Origin: Campylobacteraceae bacterium UBA1877 | GTDB lineage: Bacteria > Campylobacterota > Campylobacteria > Campylobacterales > Campylobacteraceae | Assembly: GCA_002352945.1 (NCBI GenBank) | Contig: DDHL01000033.1 | Coordinates: 16,840-28,869, forward strand | Reading direction: 5' to 3' | Length of the DNA stretch: 12,030 nt | Part shown: positions 1,211-11,427 of the stretch, piece by piece | Layout: each line of letters starts with the position of its first letter | Position numbering within the stretch: position 1 is the first letter of the stretch | The notes under the pieces: model-generated | Databases searched by the model: none | The model's input: the letters and a program-made list of their open reading frames with translations, nothing else | What the model was told of the DNA's origin: nothing | Program-made: the position numbers and the translations under genes

Positions 1211-1957
1211 ATGTGTTTTGGCTTTGAGTTAAAAAATGGAAGTTGGGTTGAACAAAACCCATCAATTTTTAAACACCTTAAGTTACATCAAAGAAGAATG
1301 CTGTTTTTAGCTCAGTATAATTGGTATGTTGATGCTTCAGAGAGAGTTTATCTTAAAAATAAAAACCTCTCATTGCAAGAAGTTTTTTTTCAGTCCATAT
1401 TAACTCTTCTTCCAAAACCCCTTTCGCCAGCCATTAAGCCAAAAGAGTTCATACCCAAAGAAGCAGTTTTAATCCGTCTTTTTTTAAATGGCGATCCTAA
1501 AAAAGTCCAAGAGTATGCTATTTGTTTGGCTTATATTCCAAAAACAGAGATGGCAAGGCGAATTTATCGCGTTTTTGCTAAAGATATTCCTGGAATTGTT
1601 TTTGATGCAAGGAGTCTGTTTTTACACTTTGTGTATGAAAAAATCGCCAATCGCAATAAAGATAAAATCGTCTATATTAAAAATGATGAAATCCTAATCG
1701 AAAGCGATGGGAAGGTGTTATTAAGCGTTGTTCCATATCTAAAAGAGGTTAATAAAGATAACCCTATGGGAATAAAAGATGAGATAAATAGAGCCTGGCA
1801 AAGGCTAAAAGAGAGTAGGGCACAAGCTTTATACCTAGTTTTTCCAAGAAATGAAAACTTTACCCGTCACATCGAAGTTCGAAATTGTGAGCACCAAAGG
1901 GCTAGGCTAAAGCTTGTTCCATACACTATTTTACATTCAGTAAAGGAGAATAGATGA
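1211..1957 (+). CDS. Uncharacterised basic protein encoded upstream of flavodoxin
   Basis: A 248-residue protein with no signal peptide and no membrane span, rich in Lys and Arg, probably cytoplasmic. The start is supported by AGGGG at 1201-1205 five bases before ATG. Visible segments are an N-terminal part with several aromatic residues (FLAQYNWYVDASERVYL, about 32-48), a middle part with PKPLSPAIKPKEFIP and EAVLIRLFLNG (about 68-94), and a C-terminal part with RLKESRAQALYLVFPRNENF. I recognise no catalytic motif. Its stop overlaps the flavodoxin ATG (ATGA), so the two are translationally coupled, and the Fur boxes upstream should put both under iron control. From memory, Campylobacter jejuni also has a hypothetical gene (Cj1383c) directly before fldA, so this may be a conserved Campylobacterota pairing; homology is not proven here. 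A role in flavodoxin function or low-iron redox metabolism is only inference. Confidence 0.85.
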   Translation: MCFGFELKNGSWVEQNPSIFKHLKLHQRRMLFLAQYNWYVDASERVYLKNKNLSLQEVFFQSILTLLPKPLSPAIKPKEFIPKEAVLIRLFLNGDPKKVQEYAICLAYIPKTEMARRIYRVFAKDIPGIVFDARSLFLHFVYEKIANRNKDKIVYIKNDEILIESDGKVLLSVVPYLKEVNKDNPMGIKDEINRAWQRLKESRAQALYLVFPRNENFTRHIEVRNCEHQRARLKLVPYTILHSVKENR

Positions 1958-2457
1958 AAATTGCAATTGTTTACGGAAGCACAGGCGGCAACGCAGAAGA
2001 TGTTGCTAAAAAGATTCAATCAAATTTAAAAGTAGATGCCGAGCTTTTAGATATTGGAAGTACTGATGCAGATACAATTAACAGCTTTGATGCTTTGATT
2101 TTAGGTTCATCAACATGGTACGATGGAGAACTTCAAGATGATTGGGATGCTTTTGATATGGATTCATTAGAGCTTAAAGGAAAGAAAGTTGCCCTTTTTG
2201 GAGTTGGAGATCAGCAAGAATATGGTGATGAATTTTGCAACGCTTTGGGGATTTTATATGAGGTTTGCGTGCAAAAAGGTGCGCAAATTTATGGAGACAA
2301 ATGGAGCACTGAAGGGTACGACTTTGAAGCATCAAATGCAGTTGTTGATGGAGCCTTTGTCGGCTTGGCAATCGACCAAGAAAACGAAGAAGATTTGACT
2401 GATGAGAGGGTTGAAAAATGGGTTAAAAACCTTGAAGAGAGTTCGTTTTTTTCATGA
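1954..2457 (+). CDS. fldA: Flavodoxin, long-chain type
   Basis: A 167-residue FMN protein of the long-chain class; flavodoxins shuttle low-potential electrons, for example to or from pyruvate oxidoreductase, and replace ferredoxin when iron is limiting. The FMN phosphate loop is GSTGGNAEDVA (about 8-18), with the NAE variant also found in Helicobacter flavodoxin. The first isoalloxazine loop is GSSTWYDGELQDDW, with Trp55 where most flavodoxins have Trp (H. pylori has Ala there). The second is GVGDQQEYGDEF with Tyr90. The C-terminal part (YDFEAS...VGLAIDQENEEDLTDERVEKWV) is the conserved long-chain tail. AAGGAG at 1943-1948 is an excellent ribosome site five bases before ATG. The gene shares ATGA with the upstream gene and probably its Fur-controlled promoter. 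Confidence 0.95.
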   Translation: MKIAIVYGSTGGNAEDVAKKIQSNLKVDAELLDIGSTDADTINSFDALILGSSTWYDGELQDDWDAFDMDSLELKGKKVALFGVGDQQEYGDEFCNALGILYEVCVQKGAQIYGDKWSTEGYDFEASNAVVDGAFVGLAIDQENEEDLTDERVEKWVKNLEESSFFS

Positions 2458-2595: not shown

Positions 2596-3051
2596 TTATC
2601 GCTGCTTTTTTTGACAAGAAAAGCAAACTCCGTAGAGTATAATAGTTCTATTTATGGCAGTAAAATTATAGTTTTGTAAAATTTCACTCTCTTTTTCTCG
2701 AAGTTTTTTGTCGCAAAAAGGCATGGCCGTACCGCACTTTATGCAAACTAGCTGATCATGATAGTCCAATTTTAGTTTGTAAGTTTTAGTTTTAAAAGGC
2801 GGTAAAACCAAAGTGTGAATGAGTCCGAGATTTTCTAAAAAATTAAGCGTGTTATAAACTGTCGGCAAAGATATGCGAATATACTTTCTAGCACGACACG
2901 CAATCTCATCGGCGCTAAGATGGGCGTTGCTGTGATAAAGCACCCGCAAGATAACCTCACGCTGACTTGAGTCATAATGGCCATAATTTTTTGCTAGGTT
3001 CAAAAATTTTTCATAAAACTGGTTAAAATTCTCTTTTTTATCCATTGCCAT
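2596..3051 (-). CDS. Fur-family transcriptional regulator with altered metal-sensing residues
   Basis: 151 residues with the two-domain Fur layout: an N-terminal winged helix (QREVILRVLYHSNAHLSADEI, then the recognition segment LPTVYNTLNFLENLGLI at about 62-78) and a C-terminal dimerisation domain. The structural zinc site is intact: C103-x2-C106 and C143-x2-C146. The regulatory region differs from canonical Fur. The usual HHDH before the first Cys pair is YHDQ (97-100), the acidic residue in the strand before it is Lys92 (TYKLKL), and the C-terminal His is Arg135 (NRTIILYGVC). By alignment from memory to E. coli Fur, the equivalents of E81, H87, H90 and H125 are lost while D89 and the N-terminal His (H44) remain. 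It may sense another signal or act without metal. It overlaps the upstream membrane-protein gene by 14 bases; a second in-frame ATG at 3045 is an alternative start. As last gene of the feo cluster it may control the cluster. Confidence 0.9.
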   Translation of the reverse strand: MAMDKKENFNQFYEKFLNLAKNYGHYDSSQREVILRVLYHSNAHLSADEIACRARKYIRISLPTVYNTLNFLENLGLIHTLVLPPFKTKTYKLKLDYHDQLVCIKCGTAMPFCDKKLREKESEILQNYNFTAINRTIILYGVCFSCQKKQR

Positions 3052-4672
3052 CTTTCTTTACAGGAGGTGCATTTTTTTCTAACTTTGCAAAATCAACAGG
3101 TGTAAAATCTTTTTTGAAAAGCCTGATAAAATAGCTATTTTCATCGTTGTAGCGCACTATGTAATGAAGCGGGTCACTTAAAAATTGCAAATCCATCTTT
3201 TTATAATCAAAGTTTGGCAAATCCAATTTAACAAAGCTAAACCCATCTTGTTTCAATAGATAAAATTCACTGTTTTTACCAATCGCATATCCAACAATTT
3301 TTTTGGCTGCATTTTCACTTACATGTAAATAGACTAAAGTTTGAGGTGTAAAAATTTGCTTTACATGTAAAGTGTCGTTATAGCGTATAAGCTGGAAAAG
3401 TTTATCTTTTGCATCTGTTATAAACAGACCCAAATCATAAGGTTTTAAATTCGTAAACTTACCCCAAACTTTTTTGGCTGGAAAAACAAAGCCCTCTTCA
3501 TTTAAAGCTAGATTTACCTCGCTTGTTAAACGTTTATCAACCTCTCCATGATGATGATAAATTACGATACCCTTTTTTGAAATATATAAAGCTTCTTTGG
3601 GAAAAGGAATGATGCCAACTTTAGGGTCTGGATTAAAAAGCGGATACAAAGCAACTCGAGGAGGAGTTAAAAGAGTTGGTTTATACGAAAGGCTCAAGCG
3701 CTCTTTTTTGATTGAGGGCGCATCATAAGATTTGCCATCAATTACAACCGGAAGCCTGCCTTGTGTTTGCAAGTCGCGCCAATAAACAAAAGGCAGCGCA
3801 TCTTTAAACTCTTCATAACTTAAGCTATCTGCTTTGATTGTCCCATACTCAAAATTGTGCCCTCCAAGGTTTCTTTGATAAACAAATGTTTTGAGTTTAT
3901 TAGAATAAAATGGGTAGTAATGAACTCTTTTTGAAATTGCATTGTTTAAAAGTTCTTTGCCTCCAAGCCATCCAATTGCAATTATGCTAACAATTAAAAG
4001 CGCGTAAAAAATGGGGTTTTTAACGCGTTTATTTGAAATTGCCAAAATAGAATCAATACCCAAAAATAGACAAACTACAATAAAGCTAGTCCACAAAAAT
4101 ATATTTTTATTTGCATCAGCGCTTATTAGCAATCCAAGAGCCAGAAAAAGAAAAAGTGCTTTTAAAAGCATTACTTTTTGCTTTGGTTCCATAATAACTG
4201 CGCAGCTGCCAAGATAAACAAACAGAGCACAAAATAAAAACCAAAGGTTATCAATAAGGCTTACATGTAAAAGTACATTGGGATAGTACTCCATAAAAAT
4301 AACCCACAAGCCAATGCCAATTATCAATCCAAAAAGCGCTATGATAGCTACTCCAATGAGCTGGTGCAGTCCTAGGGTAAACCAAGGGTTCATGGGCAGA
4401 TGCACAAGAATCCGACCACGATATCTTTCGGTATAAAATTGAAAAAGTGCAGTCAAAAAACCAACCAACAGATAAATCCATTTTAAAAAACCGTGAGGAT
4501 GGGTGTCAAAAAAGACAAATCTATGCCACAAAAGGGATTCTGGCTCGCTTGTCATAAAAAGCGTGTGGGTTTGGTAGGCTAAAATCGCAATTAGGGCAAA
4601 AGAGATGAGAGTGAAACTAATAATTGTGGGTCGAAGCTTTACCCACTCTTTAAGTGCAATGGCTCCCATCAT
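3038..4672 (-). CDS. ABC-type membrane protein with large extracytoplasmic C-terminal domain
   Basis: 544 residues. The N-terminal 240 hold about seven hydrophobic segments (near 14-33, 63-80, 103-126, 141-161, 168-184, 191-210, 221-238), as in an ABC-2-like permease. The remaining 300 have no membrane span and look like a beta-rich domain, presumably periplasmic. This domain contains DALPFVYWRDLQTQGRLP (about 291-308), which recalls the DUF4857 family, though I cannot confirm that here, and a His triplet at 373-375 (YHHHGE) that might bind metal. Its ATG overlaps the ATPase stop (ATGA), so the two should form one transporter. The overlap with the Fur-family gene extends the operon. Transport direction and substrate cannot be told; no substrate-binding protein is seen, which argues against a classical importer. 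Three TTACATGTAA palindromes lie inside the gene, each encoding Leu-His-Val. Confidence 0.75.
   Translation of the reverse strand: MMGAIALKEWVKLRPTIISFTLISFALIAILAYQTHTLFMTSEPESLLWHRFVFFDTHPHGFLKWIYLLVGFLTALFQFYTERYRGRILVHLPMNPWFTLGLHQLIGVAIIALFGLIIGIGLWVIFMEYYPNVLLHVSLIDNLWFLFCALFVYLGSCAVIMEPKQKVMLLKALFLFLALGLLISADANKNIFLWTSFIVVCLFLGIDSILAISNKRVKNPIFYALLIVSIIAIGWLGGKELLNNAISKRVHYYPFYSNKLKTFVYQRNLGGHNFEYGTIKADSLSYEEFKDALPFVYWRDLQTQGRLPVVIDGKSYDAPSIKKERLSLSYKPTLLTPPRVALYPLFNPDPKVGIIPFPKEALYISKKGIVIYHHHGEVDKRLTSEVNLALNEEGFVFPAKKVWGKFTNLKPYDLGLFITDAKDKLFQLIRYNDTLHVKQIFTPQTLVYLHVSENAAKKIVGYAIGKNSEFYLLKQDGFSFVKLDLPNFDYKKMDLQFLSDPLHYIVRYNDENSYFIRLFKKDFTPVDFAKLEKNAPPVKKDGNG
3318..3329. repeat. Variant palindrome CTTACATGTAAA inside the membrane-protein gene, copy 5
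   Basis: The 10-bp core TTACATGTAA is intact. On the coding (minus) strand it reads Leu-His-Val at residues 449-451. Confidence 0.65.
3360..3371. repeat. TTTACATGTAAA palindrome inside the membrane-protein gene, copy 6
   Basis: Perfect 12-bp copy with flank GCTTTACATGTAAAGT, almost a 16-bp palindrome. It encodes Leu-His-Val-Lys at residues 435-438. Confidence 0.85.
4260..4271. repeat. Variant palindrome CTTACATGTAAA inside the membrane-protein gene, copy 7
   Basis: The 10-bp core TTACATGTAA is intact. It encodes Leu-His-Val at residues 135-137, in the same reading phase as the other two copies in this gene. Confidence 0.65.
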
Positions 4673-5505
4673 TCATACTTTCCTACATATCCTAAAAATT
4701 TCTCTTCAAAATCACAATCTATCAATTGTAAACGTGTGCTTGTATCAAAGGTAAAACATCTATTGTGATCTTTGTGGCGCTCAATGCGATGAATATTTAA
4801 ATCCTCAAGCTCCCAATCGTCTTTAAACATATAGCAGTGAAATGAATCTAAAAACTCATTCATGCTTGATTTATAAATTTTGCCACCTTTTTGGATAATC
4901 ATCATAGAATCGATAAGTCCAACAAGTTCGCCCATAACATGAGATGTCATCAAAACACTCTTTTGAGTTTGATAGACATGATCTTTTAAATAGTCAATAA
5001 AGAGTCTTCTATAACCACTATCTAAACCCATAGAGTAATCATCAAGTATCAACAAATCTGCATCTTGTGCAAAAAGAGCGCCTAATACGACTTGGGATTT
5101 TTGCCCAAAGGAGAGGGTGCTAAGTTTTTGGCTTGGATCGCACCCTAGCAAATCTACCAAATCGTAAAAGTATTTTCGTTTCCATTTTGGATAAAAAGCA
5201 CTAAAAAAGGCTTCATATTGCTTGATACTTAAAAAATCATATGCCTTAAAACCCTCATGTAAAAGTGCAATTTTTCGCTTTAAATCTGGAGTTAGGGCAT
5301 GGGATGGTTTACCAAAAATAAGGCAACTTCCCTTTGCGGGAAGAATGTAGCCCATTAAAATGTGAATCAGAGTAGATTTACCCACCCCATTTTTGCCCAA
5401 TACTCCAAAAATTTGCCCAGGCTCAATGGACAAATTTAAATTCTCATACAGCTTTTTTTGGCCAAAATAGTGACCTAGATTTTGAAGTTCAATCACTGGA
5501 TTCAT
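4669..5505 (-). CDS. ABC transporter ATP-binding protein
   Basis: 278 residues with ABC ATPase motifs in order: Walker A GKNGVGKST (37-45), signature LSFGQ (131-135, variant of LSGGQ), Walker B LLILD (151-155), D-loop GLD (160-162) and switch His189 (TSHVMGE). The residue after Walker B, normally the catalytic Glu, is Asp156 (LDDYSMGLD). The Q-loop region (ALLHEGFKAYDFLS, about 80-93) has no obvious Gln. These changes suggest slow or altered ATP hydrolysis, although Glu-to-Asp can retain activity. The layout resembles the ATPases that pair with ABC-2 permeases. Its ATG overlaps the stop of the upstream 42-aa Cys-rich gene and its stop overlaps the ATG of the membrane protein, so it belongs to the feo cluster and partners that protein. 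The substrate is unknown. Confidence 0.9.
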   Translation of the reverse strand: MNPVIELQNLGHYFGQKKLYENLNLSIEPGQIFGVLGKNGVGKSTLIHILMGYILPAKGSCLIFGKPSHALTPDLKRKIALLHEGFKAYDFLSIKQYEAFFSAFYPKWKRKYFYDLVDLLGCDPSQKLSTLSFGQKSQVVLGALFAQDADLLILDDYSMGLDSGYRRLFIDYLKDHVYQTQKSVLMTSHVMGELVGLIDSMMIIQKGGKIYKSSMNEFLDSFHCYMFKDDWELEDLNIHRIERHKDHNRCFTFDTSTRLQLIDCDFEEKFLGYVGKYE

Positions 5506-5630
5506 TTTTCATTCTTTTGATTAGAACAACACCCTTTGCTGCCACAATTGCAGCTTCCTTTTTTAAATAATGAGTAATATATGTACGCTCCAGCCGCTAA
5601 GGCTATAACAATTAAAATCGCTGTTTCCAT
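5502..5630 (-). CDS. FeoB-associated Cys-rich membrane protein (42 aa)
   Basis: A small gene starting at ATG 5630-5628, with AGGAG about seven bases upstream in the minus-strand sequence, and ending at TGA 5504-5502. The peptide begins METAILIVIALAAGAYIYYS, one membrane span, followed by a basic stretch and a Cys cluster SCNCGSKGCCSN (C27-x-C29-x4-C34-C35). This matches the size and architecture of the FeoB-associated Cys-rich membrane proteins often found beside feoB; the Cys residues are thought to handle Fe(II) or influence FeoB at the membrane, but the function is not established. Its TGA overlaps the ATG of the ABC ATPase gene, coupling the Feo part of the cluster to the ABC part. Unusually, it is separated from feoB by three genes. 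Confidence 0.85.
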   Translation of the reverse strand: METAILIVIALAAGAYIYYSLFKKGSCNCGSKGCCSNQKNEK

Positions 5631-5643
5631 CTTTTTCTCCTAA

Positions 5644-5674
5644 TTTACATGTAGGGAAAATCCCTACATGTAAA
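5644..5674 (-). repeat. 14-bp perfect hairpin from two facing TTTACATGTA half-motifs (copies 8 and 9), after the porin gene
   Basis: TTTACATGTAGGGA (5644-5657) is perfectly inverted at 5661-5674 with a 3-base loop. It begins two bases after the porin stop and ends just before the ribosome site of the Cys-rich gene. No T-run follows on the minus strand, so it is unlikely to be a simple terminator. It may stabilise the porin mRNA end or lower expression of the downstream genes. Confidence 0.75.
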
Positions 5675-5676
5675 GA

Positions 5677-6762
5677 TTAAAATGTGTAAGTTGCATTGAG
5701 TGCAAATTTTGTATAATCATCATTGCTATCTTCAGCATCAATATCAGCTACAATAGCTCCAAGACTGAGATTATCATTAAATGAATACTCCGCACTAAAG
5801 TTAATCTCGCTCTCTTTGTCTGAGCCATACTTTGTTTGGCCAGCTAAAGCACCAAGGGCAAAATCGCCAAATTCATAAGATGCACCAACGTAGTAAGTTC
5901 TAGCATCAGTTTCATAAACTTGGTTGCCATCTTCAAATGGATTAACGTTCTCGCCAATGGCATCCATGCTTCCGATTCCACCATCTTCATCAGTAACAAT
6001 ATAGCCGCCATTTAGGCTGACCCCAGCTATATTTAAGCGACCCTCAATATTGTAAATTGAGCCATCATCTGTATCACTCTCATCTTCACTGCTTTGTGCA
6101 CCATGAAGGGTGATGCCAAACATATCCGAATCCCACTCGCCTTTGAGTCCATACCATGTGGCTACATCATTTGCGTTATATACATAACCATTTATGAGTG
6201 CACCATCAATTCCGGTATAAGCAACATCTAAAAGCTGGGCACCATCGCTTCCATTTATTTTTTCAAATTTTTCCAATGGAGCATCTGGATCGGCAACTGC
6301 CAATCTAATTGTGTGTCCTGCTGTGATAGTCAAATCACTAAGCGGAGTAAAAACTCCTACAACAGCTTCATGAAAATCGCCTGCCCATTCAAGATCAAGC
6401 TCTTGTCGGCCTATGATAAAACCAAATCCATCATTTTCGTATGAAATATTTGCTGTATGAAGCAAGACACGAGGTTCGCTGCCATCGCTATAATCACCAT
6501 CATTTCGCTCATCAAAATCATTATTGGCTCTAAAGCCAAGATTTAATCCAAATCCATTAAATTTTGCACTCTCATAGGCAAAACCAAGTGAGCCCATTGT
6601 AAAACCAGCATCTTCGCCTGTTTGGTCAATTGACTCATGATAAACCATCACATCACCACTAAAACTTCCGCTTTGCAGGGCGTCAGTTAAATCAAAAGCG
6701 TCTGCATTTAAAACGCTTGCACTAAGAGCTAATGCTGTAACAAAAGATAGTTTTTTATACAT
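5677..6762 (-). CDS. Outer-membrane porin, acidic beta-barrel
   Basis: 361 residues with a signal peptide (MYKKLSFVTALALSASVLNADA, cut near residue 22) and alternating aromatic/small-residue beta strands throughout. The C-terminal strand NATYTF ends in Phe, the usual outer-membrane insertion signal. The length suits a 16-18-strand barrel; it resembles the Opr-type porins of Campylobacterota. Predicted loops are strongly acidic (for example NNDFDERNDGDYSDGSE, SSEDESDTDDGS, DIDAEDSNDD), which would favour cations. The ribosome site TAAGGA overlaps the stop of the upstream DUF4198 gene, so the two are co-transcribed. Placement in the feo cluster suggests an outer-membrane entry pore for Fe(II) or another divalent cation; this is inference from context and charge. 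A strong hairpin follows the stop codon. Confidence 0.85.
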   Translation of the reverse strand: MYKKLSFVTALALSASVLNADAFDLTDALQSGSFSGDVMVYHESIDQTGEDAGFTMGSLGFAYESAKFNGFGLNLGFRANNDFDERNDGDYSDGSEPRVLLHTANISYENDGFGFIIGRQELDLEWAGDFHEAVVGVFTPLSDLTITAGHTIRLAVADPDAPLEKFEKINGSDGAQLLDVAYTGIDGALINGYVYNANDVATWYGLKGEWDSDMFGITLHGAQSSEDESDTDDGSIYNIEGRLNIAGVSLNGGYIVTDEDGGIGSMDAIGENVNPFEDGNQVYETDARTYYVGASYEFGDFALGALAGQTKYGSDKESEINFSAEYSFNDNLSLGAIVADIDAEDSNDDYTKFALNATYTF

Positions 6763-6772
6763 CCATCAATCC

Positions 6773-7564
6773 TTATTTCATCTCTTTTGCTTGAACCCAA
6801 ATAACGGCATCTTGACTAAGTTCTTTTCCCTCGTATTTGGTATCAGGGCCAACTCCAAGCGCTGCAAATCCCCACCAACCAGCTTTAGGAATTCCAAATG
6901 TAAACTCACCATCTTTATTGGCCTTGATTCCCATAGTTACAAAGGCATCTTGAGGTGCGCTAACGTGAGGTTTTCCCATTGCATTTGCTTCAAGATCAAC
7001 ATCATGGTTAAGATACTCAACCTCAATTTCAGCAAAAGGTACAGGTTTTCCTTCGCTCATAACAACGCCGGTAAATGTACCGCCCGCCCAAATCGCATAG
7101 GGCTTAGTTAAAGGCACAATTTCAGCTTTTAAATTAAAGTTTGTATCCCAATCTGTTGGAGCACCTGCTACATTAACAACTGTTTTTGTAATTTGCTGGA
7201 TATAAGCATCTTCATTTTTTTCAAAGTATGGTTTAGGAGTGACAATAAGCACATGATCTCCCATTCTTCGAGCTTTGTAGGTTGACTTGTAAGCTTTGCC
7301 ACTGTTTGCATTTCCCTTAAACTCTATTGGCTCAAGAGTGTCTAAAAGAGACTTTTCTTTACCTTTATTAACAACTACAAAGGATTCAATGCCCGCAATA
7401 TCCATTGTATGTTCATCTGCAAATGGGTGATTAAACACATGTCGAAGCTCAATAGTACTTGGGCCAGTTAACGCACTCTCTGGCGTGTAAAGCATTTGAA
7501 AATGAGCCAAAGCACCCGTTGATAAGAGCGCTGCTGCTGCCGTGCTTGCTAAAAATTTCTTCAT
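6773..7564 (-). CDS. Periplasmic DUF4198 family protein (Co/Ni-transport-type component)
   Basis: 263 residues with a signal peptide (MKKFLASTAAAALLSTGALA, cut after Ala20) leaving a mature N-terminus of His-Phe-Gln. The N-terminal domain has a His-rich patch RHVFNHPFADEHTMD (His42, His46, His52). The C-terminal domain (about 165-240: GVVMSEGKPVPFAEIEVEYLN ... DGEFTFGIPKAGWWGFAAL) matches the carboxypeptidase-regulatory-like beta-sandwich typical of DUF4198/COG5266 proteins, which are usually annotated as periplasmic components of cobalt or nickel uptake. Here it lies in a feo cluster, so Fe(II) handling is the likelier role (inference). Start: AAGGAG at 7571-7576 precedes ATG 7564-7562; another ATG four bases upstream is out of frame. 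It is separated from the 99-aa gene by a terminator-like hairpin and lies 10 bases before the porin gene. Confidence 0.85.
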   Translation of the reverse strand: MKKFLASTAAAALLSTGALAHFQMLYTPESALTGPSTIELRHVFNHPFADEHTMDIAGIESFVVVNKGKEKSLLDTLEPIEFKGNANSGKAYKSTYKARRMGDHVLIVTPKPYFEKNEDAYIQQITKTVVNVAGAPTDWDTNFNLKAEIVPLTKPYAIWAGGTFTGVVMSEGKPVPFAEIEVEYLNHDVDLEANAMGKPHVSAPQDAFVTMGIKANKDGEFTFGIPKAGWWGFAALGVGPDTKYEGKELSQDAVIWVQAKEMK

Positions 7565-7619
7565 CCATAACTCCTTTAAGATAAATGTAATAATAATCTA
7601 TATCAAAATACAACAAAAA

Positions 7620-7645
7620 GATATTGCTCACTACTGAGCAATATC
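7620..7645 (-). terminator. Intrinsic terminator/attenuator inside the feo cluster
   Basis: On the minus strand an 11-bp perfect stem (GATATTGCTCA/TGAGCAATATC) with a 4-base loop is followed by five T residues. The TAG stop of the 99-aa gene lies in the loop and the last codons form the stem, so translating ribosomes could affect folding. It should cut transcription before the DUF4198 gene, making the second half of the cluster partly dependent on read-through or on its own promoter. Confidence 0.75.
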
Positions 7646-7930
7646 GCTTCCTTTGATTACAACTTGATGGCCTTCGCCTGCATCAAATACCGCTTCAAAT
7701 TCACCCTCTGGTTTTTCAAAGGTAAATTCACTATAATCATCCATCTTTCCGCTTACAACGGTTTTTCCATTTTGAACAACTTTAAAAGCTGTACCAGTGG
7801 CGCTGCTGCCATCGCTAAAGCCGCCTTCGCATGTAATGGTGCCATCACCATTATCAAAGCAGCTCATAAGTGCCGAATGGGCAAAAAGTGAACTCGCTGC
7901 AAACAGTGTTGCAACAACAATTTTTCTCAT
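7631..7930 (-). CDS. Small periplasmic protein, NikL/carboxypeptidase-regulatory-like (99 aa)
   Basis: A signal peptide (MRKIVVATLFAASSLFA) would leave a mature protein starting His-Ser-Ala-Leu-Met-Ser-Cys. The mature part has two Cys (24 and 34) around an Asp/Gly-rich turn (FDNGDGTITC), perhaps a disulphide. The second half, GTAFKVVQNGKTVVSGKMD and EFTFEKPEGEFEAVFDAGEGH (about 46-88), resembles the beta-sandwich repeat of NikL-type and DUF4198 metal-uptake accessory proteins. The ribosome site AAAGGAGT overlaps the feoB stop codon, 10 bases upstream, so it is co-translated with feoB. A role in periplasmic Fe(II) delivery or as partner of the DUF4198 protein is inferred. I know no characterised homologue. 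Confidence 0.75.
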   Translation of the reverse strand: MRKIVVATLFAASSLFAHSALMSCFDNGDGTITCEGGFSDGSSATGTAFKVVQNGKTVVSGKMDDYSEFTFEKPEGEFEAVFDAGEGHQVVIKGSDIAQ

Positions 7931-7940
7931 CTTTACTCCT

Positions 7941-10388
7941 TTAGTTAGATTTAGTGGCTAAACCGCCACTCCAGTTTATTCGTTTTTGCGGAATTGAGCC
8001 CGCAATTAGGGCTAAAGCAATTACAAGGGCATAAAAGAGACCAAAGGCCTCAACTCCATTTAGGTTTAAAGATACTCCTAGGCTAAAGATACTAGATGCA
8101 GCTATAAGGCCTAAAGTTATAGGGAAAAAGATTGCAAAAAGCATCCATTTATAACTATTGGTTTGAAGCTTCACAACAATCATGGTTGCGATGCAAGGTG
8201 GAGTTAAAATCATAAAAATAATAATCGCAGCTGCATGCAGTGGTGTATAGCCGCTATTTTGTGCCATGGCTTCTTCTGCTCGCAAATTGTCTGCCTTGTT
8301 ATTTTCATACAAACTACCAAGAGTAGCCACGGCCGACTCCCTTGCAGCAAAAGAGCTTAAAAATGCTACGTTAATCTTCCAGTCAAAACCGGCAAATTGG
8401 GTGATTGGCTCAAGTCCTCGGCCGATTTTTCCAAGGAGTGAACTTTCAATCTTGTCGTTTTTGATTGATTGCAATATTCCTCGTCGTCCTCTAGAGAGTT
8501 TGCGTAACTCCCTATTTACCAATTTTGCCGCCTTATCTGATGGGGCTGGTTTAACTATGACAAATTGTTCAGGATACTTTATTTTAAACTTCTCATCTAA
8601 AGCTTTTGCCTTTTGAGGGCTTGTTATCATCCTTTTTGACTTATAATCATCATACACATTTAAGAGTTTGCTTACCTCTTCTCTGGAGCTAAATTTTTGA
8701 GCATAAGATGTTTTTTCAATTTTTTTGTAAAAGTTGCTTAATAAGGCTTCACTTTGGGCTTCATATTGAGCCTTTTGCTCATTTGAGAGCCCTGGAAGCT
8801 CCAAAAGGCAAAAGAGTACAATTGCAACTGCTAGAACAACAGTTCCAACCTTTTTAATATAAAGCCACACCCTTTCAAATGCTCTAAAAATCACACCTTT
8901 GATTGTAGGCGCATGATATGGAGGCAACTCCATTACAAAAGGTGAAGTCTCTTTTGTTCGCAAAACAGTTGAGGTTAGGACTTTGGCAACTATAAGGGCG
9001 ATAAAAAGAGTGACTGTTGATATAAAAAACATCATTAAACTCATTTGAGGCTCAAAAAAAGCTCCCAAAATAAGGGTATAAAAGGGCACTTTAGCTAAGC
9101 AGTTCATATAAGGAACTGATAAAATCGTAGCCATTCTAGCTCTTTCATCTGCAATGCCCCTAGTTGCCATAACACCAGGAACTGCACATCCTCCAACAAA
9201 TGCTCCGCCCAAAACAAGAGGCAGGGTTGATTGCCCATGAAGACCAAATTTTCTAAAGACCCTATCGAGAATAAAAGCCATTCTTGGCATATAGCCTACA
9301 TCTTCTAAAATAGCTATCATGGCAAAGAGAATTAAAAAGACTGGAATGTAGTTTAAAAGGGCGTTGGCGCTATTGACCATCCAGATAGCAAAATCTGTAA
9401 TCATAGGCACATCTGTAAAATCTGCTGCTGGCGAAATTGCAATGACAAAGTTTTTAAAGCTGGCTAAAATTGGCCAAGTATAATCAGTTAGTTTATAGCC
9501 ATAAACGATGGAAGATTGGTAAATTATAAAAATAATTAAAAAAAGAATCGGAAATGAGAACCAGCGATTGAGTACAACCGAATCTACTTTGTCGGTTAAA
9601 TTTTTCTTTTTGTTTAGTTTTTCTTGGACAGTTTGGTGGTAAATCACATCGGCTGAATCATATCTTGCTGCAGCCAAAAAGCTATCTGGATCTTTATCGT
9701 ACCTTTGGTGGAACTCTTGGGATTTTTGATCAACTAAGGAGACAAGCTCAGGGTATTTATCATAAATATTTTTATCCCCCTCTAGCGCTTTTATAGCAAT
9801 CCACCTTTTCATATTTGCAGGTGCATTGCTAATTTGTTTCTCCACTTCGGCAATGAATGGCTCAAGCTCTTCATAATTTATTTTAAATAAAGAGTATTTG
9901 GCTTTTGATGCATCTACAATGGCTTTTAAGATGGCTTCTTTACCTTCTCCTTTTGCCCCAACTGCTGGAATTACAGGACACCCTAACATTGATGAAATTT
10001 TTTGAATATCAATTTCAATCTCTCTTCTTGATACAACATCCATCATATTTAAAACAACTATGACAGGCTTTCCAATTTCAAGCAGTTGAAATGTAAGATA
10101 GAGATTTCTTTTTAAATTGGAGGCATCTACAACATTTACTATAATGTCTGGATTTTCATTTATAATAAACTCTTTAGCAACTCTCTCTTCTAGGGAGTAA
10201 GAGCTAAATGAATAGGTTCCAGGCAAGTCTACAATTTCAATATTGCTATTTTCAAATTTTACTCTTCCAGATTTCTTTTCAACTGTTACACCCGGGTAGT
10301 TGGCAATATGCTGTTTTAAACCGGTAATGAGATTAAAAAGGGTTGATTTTCCGCAATTTGGCTGACCCGCTAAAGCAACCTTTATCAT
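7941..10388 (-). CDS. feoB: Ferrous iron transport protein B
   Basis: An 815-residue inner-membrane Fe(II) transporter with an N-terminal GTPase-like domain: G1 GQPNCGKS (8-15), G2 around Thr35 (YPGVTVEKK), G3 DLPG (54-57), G4 NMMD (114-117) and a G5-like GAKG (144-147). A helical spacer follows, then the membrane domain from about residue 277 with two Gate regions. Conserved Cys of the first Gate are at GGCAVPG (C401) and MNCLAKVPFY (C430); another is in TPPCIATM (C732). Between the segment ending LLELPG (533) and LLGKIGRGLEPITQFAGFDW (651-670) there is an unusual charged insertion of about 115 residues; most FeoBs have a short loop here, and E. coli FeoB is 773 aa. Its ATG overlaps the feoA stop. 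Two Fur-box-like sites upstream of feoA indicate iron repression. Confidence 0.96.
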   Translation of the reverse strand: MIKVALAGQPNCGKSTLFNLITGLKQHIANYPGVTVEKKSGRVKFENSNIEIVDLPGTYSFSSYSLEERVAKEFIINENPDIIVNVVDASNLKRNLYLTFQLLEIGKPVIVVLNMMDVVSRREIEIDIQKISSMLGCPVIPAVGAKGEGKEAILKAIVDASKAKYSLFKINYEELEPFIAEVEKQISNAPANMKRWIAIKALEGDKNIYDKYPELVSLVDQKSQEFHQRYDKDPDSFLAAARYDSADVIYHQTVQEKLNKKKNLTDKVDSVVLNRWFSFPILFLIIFIIYQSSIVYGYKLTDYTWPILASFKNFVIAISPAADFTDVPMITDFAIWMVNSANALLNYIPVFLILFAMIAILEDVGYMPRMAFILDRVFRKFGLHGQSTLPLVLGGAFVGGCAVPGVMATRGIADERARMATILSVPYMNCLAKVPFYTLILGAFFEPQMSLMMFFISTVTLFIALIVAKVLTSTVLRTKETSPFVMELPPYHAPTIKGVIFRAFERVWLYIKKVGTVVLAVAIVLFCLLELPGLSNEQKAQYEAQSEALLSNFYKKIEKTSYAQKFSSREEVSKLLNVYDDYKSKRMITSPQKAKALDEKFKIKYPEQFVIVKPAPSDKAAKLVNRELRKLSRGRRGILQSIKNDKIESSLLGKIGRGLEPITQFAGFDWKINVAFLSSFAARESAVATLGSLYENNKADNLRAEEAMAQNSGYTPLHAAAIIIFMILTPPCIATMIVVKLQTNSYKWMLFAIFFPITLGLIAASSIFSLGVSLNLNGVEAFGLFYALVIALALIAGSIPQKRINWSGGLATKSN

Positions 10389-10612
10389 ATGATGTCAACC
10401 TCAACCAAGCAAGCCTCGCTTTTGCGCAAAGAGAGTAAATATCGATGGATTTTTAATTCCATCGGATCATACAAGGGGGCTTCTCGCACCACTTCAATAT
10501 CAGCTCCTGATACAAAGCCCATATCTAAAAGTTTTGTACGCAGCGCATCCGTTGCTTTGATTGAAACTATCTTGCATTTTGTGCCGCTTTTGGTCACCTC
10601 GTCTAATCGCAT
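10385..10612 (-). CDS. feoA: Ferrous iron transport protein A
   Basis: A 75-residue SH3-like cytoplasmic protein typical of FeoA in length and sequence: KIVSIKATDALRTKLLDMGFVSGADIEVVREAPLYDP, then MELKIHRYLLSLRKSEACLVEV. FeoA binds FeoB and is needed for full Fe(II) uptake. AAGGA at 10625-10621 is eight bases before the ATG. The stop overlaps the feoB ATG. It is the first gene of the minus-strand cluster and lies just downstream of a Fur-box-like site. Confidence 0.93.
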   Translation of the reverse strand: MRLDEVTKSGTKCKIVSIKATDALRTKLLDMGFVSGADIEVVREAPLYDPMELKIHRYLLSLRKSEACLVEVDII

Positions 10613-10636: not shown

Positions 10637-10651
10637 TGATAATTGTTATCG
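10637..10651. promoter_or_regulatory. Fur-box-like site upstream of feoA (2 mismatches)
   Basis: TGATAATTGTTATCG matches TGATAATNATTATCA at 12 of 14 positions and retains the inner dyad. It lies 25 bases upstream of the feoA ATG, consistent with overlap of the feo promoter. Confidence 0.6.
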
Positions 10652-10705: not shown

Positions 10706-10720
10706 TGATAATTATTATAA
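10706..10720. promoter_or_regulatory. Fur-box-like site in the feoA/flavoprotein divergent region (1 mismatch)
   Basis: TGATAATTATTATAA matches the 7-1-7 consensus at 13 of 14 positions. It lies about 94 bases from both divergent starts and could control either or both genes. Confidence 0.6.
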
Positions 10721-10812: not shown

Positions 10813-11427
10813 GTGTTAAATTATAGGCAAGATAAACCCAAAAAGAAGATTTTGTGCATCGGAGCAAGTCCAAGAAAGGGTGGAAATAGTGATGCAATTT
10901 TAGACTCAATTCAAAAAGGGATTGCAAGGGCAAATATTGAATCAAACTCCATTTTGCTAAGAAATTTTAGTATAAGCTCTTGCATAGGTTGTGAGCGCTG
11001 CCGCAAAGAGAAGGAGTGTGGTGGAGTTGATGATGATATGCAAAAAATTTACCCCCTAATAATCCAATCAAGCGGGCTTGTTTTAATTTCACCAGCTCAT
11101 AATTACAATGTAAGTGCATTGATGAAAATATTCATTGATAGATTATATAGATTTTATAATTTTAATAATGACCATCCAAGAGGTTGGAGTTCTCAGCTTA
11201 TGGATCAAAACCGAAAGGCCGTTGCAGTTGCCATTGGCGAACAGTTAAATAAAGAAGATCTTGGCTTTACATTAAATGGTATGGTTTGGCCGCTTCAAGC
11301 TCTTGGATATGAAGTGGCGGCAAAAGAGCAAATATATGGAAAGTTTCAAAGAGGTATTGTAAAAAAGGATTTATCGCTTATGAAATATTTTGAAGAGCTT
11401 GGATTTAAGTTTGCAAAATTGCTTTAA
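10813..11427 (+). CDS. NADPH-dependent FMN reductase / iron-sulfur flavoprotein family
   Basis: 204 residues with a flavodoxin-like fold: the FMN phosphate loop GASPRKGGNSDAIL (17-30), then a compact Cys motif CIGCERCRKEKEC (C57-x2-C60-x2-C63-x5-C69), and the FMN-contact segment ISPAHNYNVSALMKIFIDR (92-110; usually SPIYxxxxSAxxKxxIDR). The Cys spacing fits the CX2CX2CX4-7C motif of archaeal and anaerobic iron-sulfur flavoproteins that hold a 4Fe-4S cluster, so it is likely a redox protein rather than a simple flavin reductase. The start is GTG with AAGGA at 10802-10806; no better ATG is near. It is divergent from feoA across two Fur-box-like sites, so it may be iron-controlled and could help reduce ferric iron or respond to oxidants (inference). 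Confidence 0.85.
   Translation: MLNYRQDKPKKKILCIGASPRKGGNSDAILDSIQKGIARANIESNSILLRNFSISSCIGCERCRKEKECGGVDDDMQKIYPLIIQSSGLVLISPAHNYNVSALMKIFIDRLYRFYNFNNDHPRGWSSQLMDQNRKAVAVAIGEQLNKEDLGFTLNGMVWPLQALGYEVAAKEQIYGKFQRGIVKKDLSLMKYFEELGFKFAKLL

Follow-up and report, generated by a model that had tools for sequence, protein, structure and literature searches.

An ABC ATPase-DUF4857 pair found next to iron-uptake genes across many relatives points to a possible, undescribed accessory iron-import machine

Gene content of the feo locus

The window, i.e. the whole stretch of 12,030 nucleotides that was analysed, is located on contig C47 of the draft genome of Campylobacteraceae bacterium UBA1877 (1.94 Mb, 121 contigs, 82% complete). 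Nine co-oriented genes are encoded on the minus strand, from feoA to a Fur-family paralog, and two further genes of interest are found on the plus strand. A check of the coordinates showed the nine genes to be present as given in a preliminary description of this DNA.

10385-10612, minus strand: feoA (PF04023, E 3.1e-19, above the Pfam cut-off)
7941-10388, minus strand: feoB, 815 aa (PF02421, PF07670, PF17910 and PF07664, above cut-off)
7631-7930, minus strand: NikL-like exported protein, 99 aa (NF058648, below cut-off)
6773-7564, minus strand: DUF4198 (NikK-like) exported protein, 263 aa (PF10670, E 1.7e-55)
5677-6762, minus strand: Opr-family porin, 361 aa (NF033922, 304.7 bits, cut-off 100)
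5502-5630, minus strand: Cys-rich membrane peptide, 42 aa, FeoB_associated-like (PF12669, 23.8 bits, below cut-off)
4669-5505, minus strand: ABC ATPase, Asp at Walker B (LILDD), Glu in the Q-loop (PF00005)
3038-4672, minus strand: DUF4857 membrane protein, 544 aa (PF16149, 214 bits)
2596-3051, minus strand: Fur-family paralog with degenerate metal sites (PF01475, 77.5 bits)
1211-1957, plus strand: HYP248, 248 aa, without a match in Pfam, accompanies flavodoxin in relatives
1954-2457, plus strand: flavodoxin (PF00258)

The spacing also agrees with that description: four junctions overlap (by 4, 4, 4 and 14 bases) and the remaining intergenic gaps measure 10, 66, 10 and 46 bases. FeoA adjoins FeoB, their genes overlapping by 4 bases. 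The FeoB domain set is complete, with FeoB_N, Gate, FeoB_Cyto and FeoB_C all above the Pfam cut-off, and the protein reaches 493 bits against TIGR00437, which is also above cut-off. The NikL-like protein matches NF058648 at positions 2-88 of 180 only (49.5 bits against an equivalog cut-off of 100) and is without the C-terminal half of NikL. The match of the Cys-rich 42-aa peptide to PF12669 (E 5.5e-5) falls below the 27-bit cut-off of that family with its 23.8 bits. Its gene is the first of an ABC cassette that continues with the ATPase and the DUF4857 protein.

Putative Fur boxes, hairpins and the Fur paralog

The window was scanned with the Fur-box pattern TGATAATNATTATCA, allowing up to 3 mismatches. 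Six matches were found versus 2.0 expected, and all four sites with 0-2 mismatches precede either feoA or the HYP248-flavodoxin pair. Two hairpins are located within the nine-gene series.

10637-10651, no strand assigned: Fur-box-like palindrome, 2 mismatches, 25 bases upstream of feoA
10706-10720, no strand assigned: Fur-box-like palindrome, 1 mismatch, in the divergent feoA / FMN-reductase intergenic region
7591-7605, no strand assigned: weak match to the Fur box with 3 mismatches, 27 bases ahead of the DUF4198 gene
1137-1151, no strand assigned: Fur box matching the pattern without mismatch, ahead of the HYP248-flavodoxin pair
1178-1192, no strand assigned: second Fur-box-like site, 2 mismatches, before the HYP248-flavodoxin pair
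7620-7645, minus strand: terminator-like hairpin, 11-pair stem and T-run, after the NikL-like gene
5644-5674, minus strand: hairpin after the porin gene, 14 pairs, no U-tract, -19.6 kcal/mol, z -6.64

From these matches, regulation of the locus by Fur is predicted, and the flavodoxin is predicted to belong to the same Fur regulon. Because of the terminator-like hairpin after the NikL-like gene and the strong hairpin after the porin, a single nine-gene transcript is not established; the two hairpins rather suggest sub-operons within the series, at odds with the view of one uninterrupted operon.

The Fur paralog at the end of the series was compared with the intact Fur encoded on contig C11 of the same genome. 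All four zinc-site cysteines are retained, and 3 of the 8 canonical S1/S2 metal ligands are kept, the sites being assigned by the E. coli Fur numbering. Among the paralog's relatives, the ligand sets range from intact (loci L074, L075 and L079) to fully degenerate (L080). With five of eight canonical ligands lost, the paralog of the window is doubtful as an iron sensor and, judged by its residues, is more plausibly regarded as a regulator that has diverged. The earlier proposal that the locus has its own regulator is therefore not upheld: Fur boxes precede the operon, an intact Fur is encoded elsewhere, and the paralog lacks these ligands.

Exported proteins and the transported metal

The exported DUF4198 protein, which we presume to be equivalent to NikK, and the NikL-like protein share a feature at their N-termini. 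A His follows the Ala or Gly that closes the signal-like segment in all 13 aligned DUF4198 rows and in all 17 NikL-like rows (each row set includes one duplicate contig). If cleavage occurs at this point, both mature proteins may carry His at their N-terminus, a configuration with precedent in metal binding. The adjacency of NikK/DUF4198-like and NikL-like exported proteins is shared with the nickel/cobalt ECF transporter NikKMLQO (PMC2667541). Unlike NikKMLQO, the window has no NikM, NikQ or NikO match and its NikL-like protein is shortened; CbiM and CbiQ likewise gave no match among the window proteins scanned. The only CbiM (Ni/Co-type) match in the genome is found on contig C44, beside a DUF4198 gene of its own.

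Import of Ni, Co or Mn as the divalent metal in place of iron would fit the resemblance of the exported proteins to NikL and NikK, and Mn is moved by some Feo systems (PMC8749426). This explanation is nevertheless very improbable, given the Fur boxes in the window, the CbiM gene that the same genome carries at a separate place next to a different DUF4198 gene, the Cys-rich FeoB_associated-like peptide and the neighbouring flavodoxin. In Caulobacter, an operon that includes DUF4198 has been tied to iron, with Alteromonas data cited as well (PMC12004947).

Co-occurrence in Campylobacterota

The distribution of the genes was analysed in 298 Campylobacterota genomes. FeoB in general is common (FeoB_C domain in at least 247), and matches to the FeoB of the window at E <= 1e-150, defined here as the window FeoB type, are found in 28. 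DUF4857 is present in 27 genomes, including that of the window, and both occur together in 19 (Fisher 2.5e-17); at genus level, the two sets of 13 and 12, out of 59, have 10 in common (p 2.7e-7). A DUF4857 protein is also encoded by Sulfurospirillum barnesii, a non-pathogenic relative that can be cultured. These Fisher values ignore phylogeny and are inflated by the relatedness of the genomes. In at least 21 of the 28 genomes, a DUF4198 gene lies within 1 kb of the window FeoB type, compared to only 6 of 28 with DUF4857 within 5 kb. The firm core consists of FeoAB and DUF4198, usually with the NikL-like protein, to which the ABC cassette is often added. No DUF4857 match was found in 9 of these 28 genomes, so the cassette is not needed everywhere.

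Gene neighborhoods of DUF4857 were obtained from two sources. For the even phylum sample, up to 20 kb was fetched around all 30 DUF4857 places. A named set of 15 loci from named GTDB genomes was picked by similarity to a DUF4857 alignment that is weighted to the single-ORF form. The 46 loci mapped yielded 42 distinct ones after removal of L068, which is without DUF4857, and of three duplicate contigs (L076 = L049, L078 = L040, L085 = L043). FeoB is located within about 20 kb of DUF4857 in 14 of the 42, in several gene orders; a weak 365-aa FeoB match in L043 (6e-5) was excluded from this count. The even sample contributes six of its 30 places (L039, L040, L041, L042, L048 and the window). Eight of 12 loci are FeoB-linked in the similarity-chosen named set, namely L074 (Halarcobacter), L075 (Campylobacterales), L077 (Arcobacteraceae), L080 (Sulfurospirillum), L081 (Aliarcobacter vitoriensis), L082 (Sulfurovum), L084 (Campylobacterales) and L086 (Deltaproteobacteria MAG).

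The order is ABC-DUF4857-feoA-feoB-nikL in some loci and feoA-feoB-nikL-DUF4198-ABC-DUF4857 in others. This combination of kept membership and shifting order argues for a functional link and not for inheritance of a single block, and the recurrence of the pieces in differing orders in other genomes indicates that the nine-gene set is more than a chance arrangement. The preliminary description would have been refuted by missing co-occurrence in relatives; this check came out in its favor, with both the ABC pair and DUF4198 found to accompany this feoB.

FeoB is not the only partner of DUF4857. At 18 of the 42 loci, FeoB is missing and at least one TonB-receptor, TonB, ExbB, ExbD or PepSY cluster gene is present, so the ABC-DUF4857 pair is not Feo-specific. 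DUF4857 is split into two or more ORFs in 14 of these 18. The two contexts overlap, since 5 of the 14 FeoB-linked loci also carry TonB-system/PepSY genes (L041, L042, L075, L077 and L081). Neither kind of gene is found in the remaining 10 loci.

Fur boxes were also searched for in 20 of the 42 loci (the 14 FeoB-linked and six others), at up to 2 mismatches and with 0.05-0.85 matches expected per locus. Matches are found before feoA (L040, L077, L080, L082, L084), before the ABC gene (L040, L074, L075) and, better in all three loci than the window's site at 7591-7605, before DUF4198 (L042, L074, L077). Others precede the NikL-like gene (L048), fur (L074, L075, L077) and HYP248 (L084). At this threshold, three of the 14 FeoB-linked loci have no Fur box (L041, L081, L086), and in L039 the single match lies away from feo, with none near it. 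The same scan gave no match in L052 and L055 or at the unlinked copies L061 and L062.

The ABC cassette

The gene for the Cys-rich peptide lies immediately upstream of the ATPase gene in 12 FeoB-linked loci out of 14, whereas L083 is the only one of the 26 other loci scored to show this arrangement. This count covers 40 of the 42 loci (all but L043 and L065), with a doubtful ATPase ORF in L049 and L045 and a candidate in L074 judged unrelated by eye; an 80-aa Cys-rich ORF in L087 exceeds the length limit of the count and is known only via its clustering with the L086 peptide.

The ATPases themselves carry an unusual active site. In all 37 copies scored among the 42 distinct loci, including that of the window, the Walker-B Glu is replaced by Asp, within a segment reading LILDD or a close variant, and the Q-loop Gln is replaced by Glu. 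The catalytic Glu and the Q-loop Gln are assigned by the usual positions and roles in ABC ATPases. Walker A, the signature region and the H-loop His are present, except that the L057 row lacks part of Walker A. ABC paralogues from the window's own genome have Glu at Walker B in 14 of 14 rows that contain the segment (three rows are without it) and Gln in the Q-loop in 16 of 17; two long ORFs (L104, L109) were excluded from this alignment, in which L096/L107 probably represent a single ORF, as do L108/L110.

In a tree of 37 ATPase rows, 13 of the 14 FeoB-linked copies group with six of seven orphan copies and L083 (100/99). A second group comprises 12 TonB-linked copies. The L086/L087 pair is separate from these, as are three further TonB-linked rows. 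Loci L043, L045, L049, L065 and L067, which are without a usable ATPase ORF, and L068 were omitted.

L083 is labelled TonB in this tree, and feoA-like ORFs are also present at that locus.

The modelled DUF4857 protein has about seven predicted transmembrane helices and a beta-rich C-terminal domain at residues 246-535 (pLDDT 85.8). By helix count, this large and conserved extra domain is predicted to be periplasmic. It looks propeller-like in the model, and structural comparison gave no firm match for it.

One explanation is that the pair itself imports Fe(II), or iron in complexed form, in parallel to FeoB and serves with TonB/PepSY systems where FeoB is missing. In its favor, TonB-system genes take the neighboring place of FeoB in the 18 loci described above, and some DUF4857 genomes, e.g. 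G002, have no FeoB_C among the matches listed. We regard an importer as unlikely, as the catalytic Glu of the ATPase is replaced, no substrate-binding protein was matched among the window proteins scanned, and the best NCBIfam match is the export ATPase PmtA (below cut-off). Moreover, the best solved relatives are ABC-F, ABCA and Rv1218c proteins and not importers.

The same export-type matches would suit a Fur-regulated exporter of an iron-related ligand or envelope component (chelator, lipid) that stands outside Fe(II) transfer. Iron starvation would then be the sole factor common to the Feo and TonB systems with which the pair is found alike. Such a role also appears unlikely in the light of the coupling to the Cys-rich FeoB_associated-like peptide, which is almost restricted to Feo-type loci, and of the large conserved extra domain of DUF4857; no biosynthesis genes were recognised in the window.

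Comparison with described systems

With FeoA, a full-domain FeoB and a small Cys-rich membrane peptide, the locus resembles the Feo system (FeoAB and a PF12669 protein). In contrast to Feo, the Cys-rich gene is coupled to the ABC ATPase instead of directly following feoB, and the NikL-like, DUF4198, porin and ABC-DUF4857 genes are additional. The terms 'ABC transporter' and 'DUF4198' were not found in the main text of a paper on Feo evolution (PMC8749426). Ferrosome (fez) genes were considered for the neighbors in relatives, where the Pfam matches were of a general kind only.

The preliminary description knew of no system of this composition. As worded, this is not supported in view of two kinds of described loci. 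In Campylobacter jejuni and Yersinia pestis, a ferrous permease is accompanied by accessory ABC genes, and the downstream genes matter for low-iron growth (PMC6083913). The C. jejuni 81-176 1649-1656/FetMP system shares with the window a ferrous permease, a periplasmic iron protein, ABC genes and a Fur box, but differs in its FTR1/FetM permease, P19 carrier, two permeases and thioredoxins (PMC6083913). No FTR1 permease or P19 Pfam match was found among the 14 window proteins scanned.

The second is the iron-responsive locus BT3625-BT3633 of Bacteroides thetaiotaomicron (DUF4857/ABC/PepSY/TonB), which is up 37-128 fold in low iron (PMC10434189). There, DUF4857, a hypothetical protein and an ABC ATPase are consecutive and strongly induced, a likeness to the window by description and not by sequence comparison; the context differs, with a TonB receptor, PepSY and DUF4876, and no Feo gene is named in the text available (PMC10434189). 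A literature search of titles and abstracts returned no description of an ABC-DUF4857 cassette with Feo and no paper on the nine-gene composition.

Proposed function

The composition of the locus is real and conserved in parts, and the locus is a variant of Feo-based iron uptake that is new by its accessory ABC cassette. The reading that we tentatively prefer, at a little under an even chance, is an Fe(II) uptake system under Fur control, with carriers in the periplasm and an accessory that is powered by ATP and acts on the periplasmic side. Fe(II), the presumed metal, would enter via the Opr porin and be held in the periplasm by the NikL-like and DUF4198/NikK-like proteins as putative carriers, and FeoAB would move it, probably inward, across the inner membrane. 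The Cys-peptide/ABC/DUF4857 cassette would form an accessory inner-membrane machine, in which the ATPase drives movement of DUF4857 and of its beta-rich domain facing the periplasm. In this way, the machine may assist the transfer of iron from the carriers to FeoB or maintain the iron in a transport-ready state, instead of, or in addition to, moving iron itself. This mechanotransmission model draws on the predicted topology, together with the ATPase signature and the gene neighbors; signature, composition, linkage and Fur-box matches are read from the DNA itself. Of the envelope-spanning Fe(II) route proposed earlier, a multi-layer iron-uptake locus is supported, and a regulator of its own is not; nor is one uninterrupted operon.

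Several lines of evidence were counted for an accessory role: gene content, linkage to FeoB, co-occurrence, coupling to the Cys-rich peptide, Fur boxes and the ATPase residues, as well as the iron response in B. thetaiotaomicron, the Caulobacter DUF4198 operon and the separate CbiM gene. Counted against it were the proximity of DUF4857 to only 6 of 28 FeoB genes, the TonB/PepSY contexts, the loci without Fur boxes, the origin of 8 of the 14 FeoB-linked loci from a similarity-picked set, and the periplasmic domain without a solid structural match. A bolder version of the accessory role is unlikely: the cassette as a new class of ATP-powered periplasmic iron machine, working interchangeably alongside FeoB or TonB/PepSY systems, in which an ABC protein with a conserved non-canonical active site mechanically drives the beta-domain and delivers Fe(II) to an inner-membrane carrier with no iron transport of its own.

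We know of no clear account of the periplasmic hand-over of Fe(II) to FeoB. If the proposed function is true, a conserved ATP-driven accessory would provide a concrete, deletable candidate for this step. This accessory, recognizable by the changed active site of its ATPase, would be shared with the iron systems of the TonB/PepSY type, and a role would be assigned to DUF4857 and to the Feo-linked DUF4198 and NikL-like proteins.

Genes flanking the feo cluster

The following features lie in the window outside the nine-gene feo cluster:

2-574, voltage-gated-type ion channel (Ion_trans), C-terminal part, at the window edge
1137-2457, two Fur-box matches followed by a gene pair (248-aa protein and flavodoxin)
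10813-11427, FMN-reductase-like gene, divergent from feoA

The FMN-reductase-like gene may be a member of the regulon of feoA, since the two genes share an intergenic region that carries two Fur-box matches. The 248-aa protein paired with the flavodoxin has no Pfam match, and the two genes are found together again in five of the loci around DUF4857 genes in relatives (L044, L045, L067, L077 and L084). According to PMC10434189, an operon of P. gingivalis consisting of an unknown protein and a flavodoxin is strongly induced by low iron; its likeness to the window pair is one of described gene make-up.

Second copies spread over several reading frames

The second, distant FeoB of the window's genome (G000:C7:8701-11024) is split across two overlapping reading frames of 378 and 480 aa, either by a frame change or by an assembly error. 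The second DUF4857/ABC copy of genome G257, located at L067 (G257:C76), is interrupted, with one TAA within the match and several short ORFs.

Gene neighborhoods in relatives

The surroundings of the Fur paralog and two longer NikL-like proteins were located as follows:

L048:10390-17374, Fur-paralog neighborhood
L074:18635-21257, Fur-paralog neighborhood
L075:3601-8528, Fur-paralog neighborhood
L080:13134-19866, Fur-paralog neighborhood
L039:13468-14079, longer NikL-like protein
L075:15678-16175, longer NikL-like protein

HMA_2-type proteins, a ferritin-like (DUF2202/rubrerythrin) protein and small membrane proteins adjoin the Fur paralog in these four neighborhoods, and P-type ATPases are also found beside it in L048, L075 and L080. 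Judged by gene content, the neighborhoods resemble a putative ferrosome-type iron-storage cluster.

Both longer NikL-like proteins have a hydrophobic C-terminal segment. Their genes adjoin PepSY cluster genes, which suggests that the NikL-like domain is used by other iron systems, too.
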